Source: Protaetiibacter sp. SSC-01
GTDB lineage: Bacteria > Actinomycetota > Actinomycetes > Actinomycetales > Microbacteriaceae
DNA: 64,000 nt
Assembly (NCBI RefSeq): GCF_014483895.1
Contig: NZ_CP059987.1
Location: 124,001-188,000, forward strand
Direction: 5' to 3'
Shown here: piece by piece, positions 29,534 through 40,833 of the stretch
Layout of the letters: every line of letters begins with the position of its first letter
How positions within the stretch are numbered: the stretch's first letter is position 1
The notes under the pieces: generated by a model
Told to the model about the DNA's origin: nothing
Seen by the model: only the letters and a program-made list of their open reading frames with translations
Databases searched by the model: none
Made by a program: the position numbers and the translations under genes

Positions 29534-31174
29534 TCAGCTGGTCGAGGAGCGCCGCGAAGCGACGCGTCTCGAGACCACCGTCAGCAGCAGCCCCAGCACG
29601 AACAGCGCCAGTCCCAGCGGGAGCACTCCCGCATCGGCACCCGTCGCCGCGAGCGCGGGCTGCGCCGTCACGGTGATGGCGATCTCGGCGACCTGCACCC
29701 CGTCGCGCAGCAGCACGACCGTGTGGGCACCCGCCGGCGTGGAGGCGGGGATGCGGAAGGTCTGCGAGACCGTGCCGGCGGCATCCGAGGTGGCGGTGCC
29801 GAGCACGACGGGGGTGGAGTGCAGCTCGACCGTGTACTCCTCGTCGAGCAGCAGGCCCCAGGCCTGCACGGTGACCGTGTCGCCGGCCTGCACGCTCGTG
29901 ACGCTCGCGGCCACGGTCGGCTTCGCGATCTTGCCGGTCGGCGCCGAGGCGATGACGTAGTCGTGGTGGTCGACGGCGTGTGCGGTGGCGGCGACGTAGA
30001 CCACCTCGCCCACGAGGTCGTCGGTCATGGCGAGCGTCGCCTGGTCGGCCCCGGCGATCGGCGTGCCGTCTTCGAGGAACCACTGGTACGTGAACGAGTC
30101 GGGCACGGGCGACCAGGCGCTCGTGTCGACGGATGCGGTGAGCACCCCGCCGAGGGCGTTGCGTCCGGTGACCACCGGCGCCGCCCCGGGTGTCTGGTCG
30201 GCGAGCGCGACGGTGGCCGTGTAGGCGGATCCGAGCGTCACGTAGTCCTGGTAGTCGTCGCGCTCGAGGAGGGCGGTGGCGTAGAGCGGCTGCCCGAGGA
30301 GCGCGCTCGTCGGGGCGAACGTCGCTCCCGTGCCGACGATCATGCCGTCGGTGGTCCGCCACTGGATGGTGACGGAGGTCGGGGCCGGCGTCACGCCCGA
30401 GGCGTCGTAGCCGGCGCTGAAGCTCGTGCCGAGACGACCGGCGCCGGAGACCGTGGGCACCGCGGTGACGTTCGCGAAGGAGCCGAGGTGGGCGGTCTGC
30501 GAGAAGCTCGTCGACCACGTGGCGTCGAGGTAGCCGGCCAGGTGGGCGGTGACGACGGCGTAGAAGACGGAACCGGCGGAGACGTCGGCCGAGGTGATCT
30601 GGTATCCGCCGACGACGGCGCCGGATCCGCTTCCGACGAGCGCGTTGTCGGCGACGCGCCGCCACTCCCAGTCGTAGCCCGTGGGCGTGGCGCCCCACCC
30701 GGTTCCGGAGACAGTCAGCATTCCGCCCGCGACCGCCTCACCCGGCGCCGCCAACGTCGGCTGGGTGAACTGGCGTGCCGAGACGTGCGACCAGTTGCTG
30801 GTGAGGGTCGCGATCTGACCGTCATGAGGCCCCCCGCTGACCATGACCCGCTGCACGCCGTAGAGGTCGGTGCCGATGTCGTCGATCGTCGTGGTGTACC
30901 ACTGGTCGTTGCTGAGCACCGCGCCATCGCTGACTCGGATCCACTGGGTGGATTTGAAGGTGAGGCCTGACGCACCCGGCAGCAGCGCGAGCATCGACGT
31001 GAAGCTGGACGATATCTGCACCTGGGTGCCCCAGGTGACGTTGGTGGGCATCGTCCAGGTGCCGGAGGGCACGTAGTCGGCCGCCTGGGCCGGCGCCGCC
31101 CCGAGGGCGACACCCCCGAGGGCGAGCGCGACGGCGGCGACGGATGCGGACAGGCGGCGGAGGGCGCGGGGCAT
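29534..31174 (-). CDS. Secreted Ig-like repeat protein with LAATG sortase anchor
   Basis: The 546-residue protein has a signal peptide (ASVAAVALALGGVALGAAPA, cleavage after AQA), then several beta-rich Ig-like repeats marked by phrases such as VSGAGRLGTSFSAGYD and FTYQWFLEDGTPIAGADQAT. A pre-anchor domain (YTVELHSTPVVLGTA) is followed by ALAATGADAG, a hydrophobic helix and the basic tail SRRVASRR. It is probably wall-attached by a class E-type sortase; no sortase gene is in the window. ATG 31174 is chosen; GTG 31195 would add seven residues. The final 13 residues are encoded by a dispersed repeat. Confidence 0.78.
   Translation of the reverse strand: MPRALRRLSASVAAVALALGGVALGAAPAQAADYVPSGTWTMPTNVTWGTQVQISSSFTSMLALLPGASGLTFKSTQWIRVSDGAVLSNDQWYTTTIDDIGTDLYGVQRVMVSGGPHDGQIATLTSNWSHVSARQFTQPTLAAPGEAVAGGMLTVSGTGWGATPTGYDWEWRRVADNALVGSGSGAVVGGYQITSADVSAGSVFYAVVTAHLAGYLDATWSTSFSQTAHLGSFANVTAVPTVSGAGRLGTSFSAGYDASGVTPAPTSVTIQWRTTDGMIVGTGATFAPTSALLGQPLYATALLERDDYQDYVTLGSAYTATVALADQTPGAAPVVTGRNALGGVLTASVDTSAWSPVPDSFTYQWFLEDGTPIAGADQATLAMTDDLVGEVVYVAATAHAVDHHDYVIASAPTGKIAKPTVAASVTSVQAGDTVTVQAWGLLLDEEYTVELHSTPVVLGTATSDAAGTVSQTFRIPASTPAGAHTVVLLRDGVQVAEIAITVTAQPALAATGADAGVLPLGLALFVLGLLLTVVSRRVASRRSSTS
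29537..29576. repeat. Family E variant repeat inside the 3' end of a surface-protein gene
   Basis: gctggtcgaggagcgccgcg continuing aagcgacgcgtctcgagacc is the known variant of the gctggttgag...tatcgaaacc module, with a small stem in its middle. It lies directly before the stop codon and encodes the basic tail (VSRRVASRRSSTS). Confidence 0.7.
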
Positions 31175-39214: not shown

Positions 39215-39790
39215 TCAGTCCTCCGAGTGCGGGGTGAGGGTCATCGACTCGTTCCACTCGGGAACGCTCGGATAGACGTAGTGGTACCCGATGCTCGTCA
39301 CCGGCGAGCCGACGGGGGTGAGGGTGATCTCCCCCTGATCGACGCAGGCCGCGTCGTCGACCGTCTCGACGAACGTGATGGTGGTCTCGGTGCGCGCCGT
39401 CTGCGCCCACGTGAAGCCGCACAACCCGGGGTACTCGCCGACGGCGGGTGCCGTGGTGCCGTCGTCGGTGATCGTCACGACGATGCCGTACGACTGGGGG
39501 ATCTGGCCGGCCCACACGCCGGCCACGGTGACGGCCGGCGTCGGCGTCGGGGTCGGGGTCGCGGTGGCGGAGGCGGCTGCGGGCGAGCAGTCGTCCGCGG
39601 CCTGCGCGGGGGCGGGAGCGCCGAGCGTGCCCACGGCCACGAGCGCGCCGATCGCGAGCAGGCCCAGCACACCGTGACGGACGCGGCCGGAACGCCAGAC
39701 GACGGCGACACCGATGGCGACGAGCAGGACGGCGCCGAGCGCGATGAGCGAGGTGTCGGTGGAGCCGGTGGCGGCGAGGCACTCGGGCAT
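39215..39790 (-). CDS. Small secreted protein with sortase-like LAATG motif at the N terminus
   Basis: The 191-residue protein has an unusual order. It opens MPECLAATGSTDTS, then a hydrophobic helix (LIALGAVLLVAIGVAVVW) and basic RSGRVRH, the order of a cell-wall sorting signal but at the front. A second hydrophobic stretch (GVLGLLAIGALVAVGTLG) ends in APAPAQA, a signal-peptidase site, followed by ADDC. A Thr/Pro linker (about 75-88) leads to a small beta-rich domain with Cys residues. ATG 39790 is the only start that keeps this region; no strong Shine-Dalgarno is visible. It is convergent with the RND gene two bases away. Confidence 0.65.
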   Translation of the reverse strand: MPECLAATGSTDTSLIALGAVLLVAIGVAVVWRSGRVRHGVLGLLAIGALVAVGTLGAPAPAQAADDCSPAAASATATPTPTPTPAVTVAGVWAGQIPQSYGIVVTITDDGTTAPAVGEYPGLCGFTWAQTARTETTITFVETVDDAACVDQGEITLTPVGSPVTSIGYHYVYPSVPEWNESMTLTPHSED

Positions 39791-39855
39791 GTGCGTTTTC
39801 CCCCTGTTGAGTTCGATCAGGCTCACACGAGGGGCACGGAAGTCCCCTCTGCGAA

Positions 39856-40833
39856 TCACTGTTCGTCGTCGGCCTCGACGAGGGGGAGCACCTGCGGAGT
39901 GAGCGTGCGCTCGTAGAAGTCGAGGATGCGCTCCTTGAGCCCGTCGTCGATCATCGCGATCGAGTGCAGGCGGCCCTCGACCTGCACGAACGTCGTGTCG
40001 ACCCCGACCCCGCGCAAGGTTCGCACGAGGATGCGCGCCTGCTCGAGCGGGATCATCTCGTCGGTCGAGTGGGCGACGAGGAACGGCGGGTCGGTGTCGT
40101 CGACCCACGTGTTGGGCGACGCCGCGAGGGCGAGCGGGCACTCCATCGTGGCGACGCATCCGAGGTAGGCGGCCTGCACGGGCAGGAAGTCGTCGGTCGC
40201 GGCGACGCCCGTGAGGTCGACGGGGGCCGAGAGCTCGACGACGGCCGCGACGCGCGACCCCGTGTCGAGCGGCCCCGTGCCGCGCGTGCCGAGCAGCGAC
40301 ACGAGGTTGCCGCCGGCGGAGCCACCGAGCGCGCCGATGCGGTCGGGGTCGATGCCGAACCGCTCCGTCTGCTCGGGCTCGCGCAGCCACTCGACGGCGG
40401 CGACGAGGTCGTCGATCGCCGCGGGGTAGGGGTTCGCGGGCGCGAGGCGGTAGTCGACGGCGAAGGTCGGGTAGCCGGATGCGCCGAGCCACTGGCACAC
40501 GGCACGCCACGCGATGTCGTTCTTCGAGCCGCGGGCCCAGCTGCCGCCGTGGACCACGACGACGGCCGCCCGAGGTGGCTCGTCGAGCGGGTCGAAGTCG
40601 GGCGGCATGCACGCGTCGAGGAACAGCGGCTGCCCGTCGACGGCGCGATAGGGGATGTCGACCGTCGTCGGCACGGTCGGGTCGGTGGCGAGGTGGGGGT
40701 TGCTCGAGACGACGACCCCCTCGACCTCGACGTCCGCCTCGTCGCCGGTGGGGGCGCATCCGCCCGCCGCGAGCCCGAGCGCGCCCAGCACGAGGGCCGC
40801 GAGGGCGGCACGTGTCGGGTTCGCGGCGCGCAT
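39856..40833 (-). CDS. Lipoprotein alpha/beta hydrolase (BD-FAE/carboxylesterase-like)
   Basis: The 325-residue protein starts with a lipoprotein signal (ALVLGALGLAAGGC, lipobox Cys near residue 26), so it is anchored outside the membrane. The hydrolase domain has VVVVHGGSWARGSKND (HGG oxyanion motif), GALGGSAGGNLVSLL (nucleophile Ser), an Asp in the AHSTDEMIP region and His in VEGRLHSIAM. This resembles carboxylesterases that act on acetylated sugars or similar esters. ATG 40833 is chosen because it gives the lipobox at the usual distance. TACCGT lies nine bases upstream. Confidence 0.8.
   Translation of the reverse strand: MRAANPTRAALAALVLGALGLAAGGCAPTGDEADVEVEGVVVSSNPHLATDPTVPTTVDIPYRAVDGQPLFLDACMPPDFDPLDEPPRAAVVVVHGGSWARGSKNDIAWRAVCQWLGASGYPTFAVDYRLAPANPYPAAIDDLVAAVEWLREPEQTERFGIDPDRIGALGGSAGGNLVSLLGTRGTGPLDTGSRVAAVVELSAPVDLTGVAATDDFLPVQAAYLGCVATMECPLALAASPNTWVDDTDPPFLVAHSTDEMIPLEQARILVRTLRGVGVDTTFVQVEGRLHSIAMIDDGLKERILDFYERTLTPQVLPLVEADDEQ

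Follow-up and report, generated by a model that had tools for sequence, protein, structure and literature searches.

The gene described here encodes a protein of 191 aa, P0001, on the minus strand at 39790..39215 of the window, the 64,000-nucleotide stretch of Protaetiibacter sp. SSC-01 DNA that was analysed. Its translation starts MPECLAATGSTDTSLIALGAVLLVAIGVAVVWRSGRVRHGVLGLLAIGALVAVGTLGAPAPAQAADDC. A hydrolase gene adjoins it upstream and an RND-like transporter gene lies tail to tail with it; both neighbours are retained beside the corresponding gene in genome G006. The features of the locus, in the direction of transcription of P0001, are as follows.

39856..40833, minus: alpha/beta hydrolase (BD-FAE/Abhydrolase_3) with a lipoprotein-type signal, LAAGGC; adjoins P0001 upstream
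39800..39805, minus: AGGGGG, ribosome-binding-site-like, at 9 nt spacing from the ATG at 39790
39215..39790, minus: P0001 precursor with N-terminal sortase-type module, including the stop codon
39779..39790, minus: N-tail MPEC; the Cys4 codon is 39779-39781
39764..39778, minus: LAATG sortase motif, residues 5-9, with a predicted cut at T8/G9
39695..39754, minus: hydrophobic helix 1 (TM1), residues ~13-32, N-out by the positive-inside rule
39674..39694, minus: basic loop RSGRVRH, predicted cytoplasmic
39620..39673, minus: hydrophobic helix 2 (TM2), residues ~40-57, signal-peptide-like
39599..39607, minus: AQA, residues 62-64, predicted signal-peptidase I site
39587..39589, minus: Cys68, four residues past AQA, predicted disulfide partner of Cys4
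39530..39586, minus: Ser/Ala/Pro/Thr-rich linker, wall-spanning-like in composition
39218..39529, minus: beta domain with its own Cys pair C124/C149, from a low-confidence model and homologue L004
36018-39212, tail to tail with P0001: RND-like transporter gene, named from our own reading of its sequence

Anatomy and start of the precursor

The sequence-only reading had placed a sortase-type signal at the N terminus of this protein, and all of its elements are present: LAATG, a hydrophobic helix, RSGRVRH, a second helix and AQA. The order of a sorting signal (L-A/P-x-T-G, then a hydrophobic helix, then a basic cluster) is kept, and what departs from such signals is the location, since the motif lies at residues 5-9 of 191 and not at the C terminus; the other modules described below likewise carry it N-terminally. 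TM2 and AQA together have the hydrophobic core followed by A-x-A that characterizes Sec/signal peptidase I substrates, but TM1 with an acidic N-tail precedes them, and the basic start of an ordinary Sec signal is missing. The term 'Cys-rich beta domain', used in the same reading, is loose, as two of the four cysteines (C124 and C149) lie in the domain, the others being C4 in the N-tail and C68. No Pfam model matches P0001 above cut-offs, and the NCBIfam models LAETG and LPXTG_anchor both match residues 5-33 below cut-off. AlphaFold2, run on the single sequence, models helices with low confidence at 10-33 and 39-57; with a mean pLDDT of 55.7 the model is too weak for a fold search or for assigning cysteine pairs. 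A lipoprotein reading was rejected: there is no lipobox ([LVI][ASTVI][GAS]C), C4 precedes both helices and C68 follows AADD.

The start codon deserves attention, as an in-frame GTG stands at the beginning of helix 2, where translation could in principle begin, the motif before it then being a matter of chance. This can hardly be the case. The ATG at 39790 is preceded by the ribosome-binding-site-like sequence, as are several homologue starts (a strict script found none for some), and the N-tail is conserved across genera and families, which largely refutes the idea. Homologues of P0001 starting only at helix 2, the pattern that would have spoken for it, were not seen. The window has 3963 start codons, counting both strands, and in just two cases does L[AP]xTG begin at residues 3-10: after the P0001 ATG and after a GTG that falls within the C-terminal signal at 29653. 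So rare among window starts, and part of a module conserved in other genera, the motif is not there by chance; a gene-fusion accident or wrong start is ruled out by the same conservation in several genera.

Two proteins with C-terminal LAATG are encoded in the window (motifs at +18557 and -29653), as had been pointed out before. Elsewhere in the same genome (L150; G000:C1:1057000-1058300) is a C-terminal LAETG signal with a basic tail that has Cys as its last residue (RARRRVAAC), and a C-terminal signal in genome G106 (L181) has repeated motifs, LAFTG...LANTGLAFTG, within ~25 residues.

Distribution of the module and its exchange between exported proteins

Among 60 relatives searched, the whole module is found in G006, G031 and two proteins of G034. 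The closest homologue of P0001, in G006, has 50% identity over residues 1-175 and keeps the entire first 70 residues; the similar N termini suggested earlier for other Microbacteriaceae are borne out as a module conserved across genera. A DNA pattern applied to 398 family genomes hit 18 sites in 17 genomes, compared with 4 for the reversed pattern, and 11 of the 18 were judged to be modules when the loci were read. With a profile made from ten modules (E 1e-5), 44 of 299 family genomes match, a figure that includes C-terminal signals. A second profile, running from the L of LAxTG to AxA, was built without cysteines to avoid selecting for them; among the matches listed, its full-length hits are the known modules plus L143, L144, L146 and L145, the last near a contig edge. 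By hand tally the motif-bearing module occurs in at least 30 of the 299 Microbacteriaceae genomes, 28 of these coming from the profile and detector work and two (G030, G143) from the L051-domain search described below. At the level of the order (297 genomes) there are four more modules outside the family, in three other families (L184-L187), all four with both cysteines, and none were counted outside the order among 246 genomes of the phylum. A scan of contigs from named organisms matched 19 stretches, of which one was confirmed, in a Microbacteriaceae MAG.

Some candidates were set aside. L189 passes the module detector, but its LPITG is internal, has no preceding Cys and is followed by an AAC site. 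In this locus (G882, outside the order, ~1501), LPITG, a helix, a basic stretch, a second helix and a lipobox-like ASAAC follow one another in a 700-aa open frame; this may be a related hairpin with a lipoprotein site at its end. A plasmid-borne trait was rejected as well: P0001 has no plasmid match, and where M1 peptidase homologues occur on plasmids (16 actinobacterial records), the similarity covers the 175-residue query only from residue 95 onward and leaves out the module. Two small Microbacteriaceae genomes, G077 and G175, near 2 Mb in size, have one or two modules (L043, L052, L069), with mature parts in separate sequence groups.

The proteins behind the module are diverse. In a comparison of 46 mature parts (from 43 modules found by the detector and L184-L186, with L187 omitted), blastp gave 17 groups, between which distant kinship is possible; the module is thus an exchangeable front end. 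Pfam searches on four members other than P0001 and L024 identified L045 as Peptidase_M1 and L077 as Hydrolase_4, with no match for L003 and L015.

Most modules were found with profiles built from modules, so the invariance of the motif is in part a result of selection, and only searches with mature domains are free of this bias. With the M1 domain alone, 150 family genomes gave nine proteins: six with the module, one lipoprotein (LLAGC, the second copy in G019) and two with a plain signal peptide and no N-terminal Cys. With the L051 domain alone, the same number of family genomes gave 12 proteins, six with the module and six whose N-terminal signals are of other kinds, the stretch up to the domain being free of Cys; new modules from this search are L202 (NCGP-LPGTG), L205 (TCSA-LASTG) and L207 (TCDE-LAVTG). 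In total, the hairpin proteins retrieved by mature domains have the motif and both cysteines in 12 of 12 cases (6 M1, 6 L051 family), and of the nine hairpin-less homologues eight have plain signals without either Cys and one is a lipoprotein. The plain-signal L051-domain homologues L208-L212 all have AYWTT/NxGxGxG(S) just past the signal peptide and form a separate family of small exported Microbacteriaceae proteins.

Paired cysteines around the hairpin

Two conserved cysteines, unremarked in the sequence-only reading, belong to the module: one precedes LAxTG and the other follows the signal-peptidase site. In an alignment of 30 hand-picked modules, every row having the motif, C4, L5, T8, G9, A64 and C68 are invariant and A62 is nearly so. 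The module detector, which needs LxxTG, two helices and a basic stretch and does not require Cys, yielded 43 distinct N-terminal modules and 48 C-terminal signals (one of the latter, L025, is doubtful and L181 is counted twice; none were dropped). Of the 43 modules, 42 have a Cys among the 6 residues that precede the motif, against 0 of the 48 C-terminal signals (Fisher p 2.7e-25); the one module without it is L075, with 18 residues between the nearest Cys and the motif. When the detector was rerun on all 216 loci, 51 were found, 49 of them with the N-tail Cys and the remaining two being L075 and L189. The second Cys, past AxA, is present in 43/43 modules, at a longer gap in L073 and L146. In Sec-like controls taken from the same DNA (30 picks of a crude script, less the module proteins L042, L058, L071 and L146; some are membrane proteins), the 15 aa next to the cut contain a Cys in 0 of 26 cases and the 20 residues next to it in 1 of 26.

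The distance of the first Cys from the motif is not fixed: it is 1, 2 or 3 residues in 19, 18 and 5 of the 42 modules, respectively, and 4 in L187. Such variation fits a tether, which needs no single site, and rules out an extended sortase recognition motif that includes the Cys, as does the lack of this Cys in the C-terminal signals examined. In P0001 itself the candidate partner of C4 is C68: L004, a homologue of its domain on another single-helix protein, has equivalents of C124 and C149 only, which leaves C4 and C68 for each other. Outside the helices the number of cysteines is even in 41 of 43 modules (the odd ones are L049, with three, and L075, whose distant Cys is left uncounted) and exactly two in 16 proteins. 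Each of the 13 M1-peptidase members, followed as far as its stop codon, has two cysteines only, one on each side of the hairpin.

Parity does not discriminate between disulfides within and between molecules, and even numbers and two-Cys proteins would be equally compatible with C4 and/or C68 pairing with another molecule to give wall-linked or secreted multimers. We regard this as improbable, since both cysteines co-occur beside two predicted cuts on 17 sequence groups, for which self-tethering is the better fit.

In the 25 aa past the post-AxA Cys the fraction of Pro and Thr is 0.44, against 0.17 further on (40 of 43 modules), which indicates that a wall-spanning-like linker begins at the proposed joint. 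For the 48 C-terminal controls, the mean over the 25 residues that lead up to the motif is 0.23. The linker position, the matched post-AxA Cys and the absence of that Cys in plain-signal homologues are all unpredicted by an earlier suggestion, in which the LAATG peptide acts as a decoy for sortase, or is set free as a signalling peptide, and has nothing to do with what becomes of the mature protein. An N-terminal motif would indeed give an 8-residue fragment if cut; as the idea explains neither the paired cysteines nor the reuse on 17 sequence groups, it has lost ground and appears very improbable.

A different view is suggested by three hairpins that hold both cysteines despite a lost or degenerate motif. 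In L042 (G026), a hydrolase orthologue, MTDCRAGTWLG replaces the motif; L074 has a Cys, ten residues and a degenerate TALTG, with the post-AxA Cys present; L145, near the contig edge, has both cysteines and no motif. The disulfide may therefore matter in these proteins without sortase, which keeps alive an alternative in which AxA is cut, sortase never acts and the hairpin, with its two clear hydrophobic segments, stays as a disulfide-pinned membrane anchor, LAxTG being an ancestral relic. Against this stand the retention of LxxTG in all 12 hairpins from mature-domain searches and, in the 30-row alignment (rows chosen with the motif), the invariance of its L, T and G. On balance the membrane anchor is unlikely, and the two-helix anchor proposed earlier survives as this rival or as an intermediate step. 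L042 is a natural test case for the sortase-independent alternative.

Sortase E and the proposed anchoring route

The presence of a matching sortase, expected earlier from the C-terminal LAATG proteins, is borne out: the genome's only PF04203 match is a class E sortase according to NF033747 (224.5 bits, cut-off 160). A sortase is found in 49 of 49 genomes tested, whether the module is present or absent, and co-occurrence is therefore uninformative. In 25 regions of up to 11 kb around module genes no sortase was picked up, a weak result, given a motif script uncalibrated on any known sortase. As for oxidative folding machinery, VKOR was looked for in 16 module genomes and occurs in all 16.

The N-tails are acidic: 39 of 43 contain D/E, and 2 of 43 have K/R at a distance of up to 6 residues from the motif. 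By the well-established positive-inside rule, the acidic tail together with the basic residues after TM1 predicts that the N terminus is outside, the loop inside and the mature part outside. This topology would put the sortase motif at the outer face of the membrane, as it is in C-terminal signals according to the consulted part of PMC5148588, where class E is given as the LAXTG class of sortases. Oxidative folding of exported proteins in Actinobacteria is described for MdbA in the consulted part of PMC9974433.

The most likely explanation is that these proteins are anchored to the wall by sortase E through their N terminus, with a disulfide as tether (probability about 0.57). The first ~68 residues of P0001 would be a removable anchoring module. 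The acidic N-tail would lie outside, TM1 would run inward, the basic loop would be cytoplasmic and TM2 would run outward. Signal peptidase I would cut after AQA and a disulfide would form between Cys4 and Cys68, taking the place of a peptide bond between the mature protein and the stretch that immediately precedes the motif. Through this bond the mature protein would stand upstream of the motif, in the same relative place as in an ordinary sortase substrate. Sortase E would then cut between T8 and G9 and transfer MPECLAAT, with the mature protein attached, to a cell-wall precursor, and the membrane hairpin G9-A64 would be lost. The product would be a two-chain protein with its N terminus fixed to the wall, its C terminus free, and releasable by reduction.

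Identical evidence from the motif and cysteines would serve for a variant in which sortase attaches the N-peptide to the wall, AxA remains uncut and TM2 is retained, so that the disulfide ties membrane to wall like a staple. Such an arrangement is quite unlikely, as the A-x-A that closes TM2 hardly varies and homologous domains elsewhere have ordinary signal peptides.

Disulfide-tethered anchoring, as proposed above, has partial parallels. Bacterial lipoproteins too are held by the N terminus and have their C terminus free, and the M1 peptidase also exists as a lipoprotein, but P0001 has no lipobox at either module Cys and its N-tail Cys precedes the first helix. In proinsulin-type processing, two chains are held by disulfides after a connecting segment is excised; in the present case a membrane hairpin would be the part cut out, and one of the chains, of ~8 residues, would be wall-bound. 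MYXO-CTERM tags are C-terminal, occur in myxobacteria and are processed by another enzyme; a hydrophobic helix and a basic cluster follow the motif, and to our knowledge there is no LxxTG. As described in the consulted part of PMC11980579, these myxosortase signals likewise contain an invariant Cys within a short signature motif, after which further elements come. Class E substrates with C-terminal LAXTG, such as the Streptomyces chaplins ChpA-C, share with the module the LAxTG, the hydrophobic helix and the basic residues, as far as the consulted part of PMC5148588 describes them. Relative to that description, the signal of the module is N-terminal and leads on to a second helix, AxA and the mature protein; it has a Cys before the motif, and the mature part is not peptide-bonded upstream of the motif. 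A search of the literature, mostly outside subscription journals, for sortase signals at the N terminus, sortase substrates tethered by a disulfide and the sortases of Microbacteriaceae returned nothing on such anchoring.

Taken more broadly, the odds are slightly better than even that this is a new class of sortase substrate in Microbacteriaceae and relatives: an exchangeable N-terminal module, in front of at least 17 groups of exported domains, that signal peptidase and sortase E would cut out in the form of a membrane hairpin. What remains would be a surface protein of two chains, bound to peptidoglycan via an N-terminal peptide of ~8 residues and a reducible disulfide. Since sortase signals are defined as C-terminal, annotation and surfaceome pipelines are expected to call these proteins membrane or secreted. 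If the proposal is true, sortases can anchor proteins by the N terminus, leaving the C terminus free, through a bond that redox conditions can release; class E sortases would have more substrates than thought, and the module would be a natural N-terminal, reducible tag for surface display.
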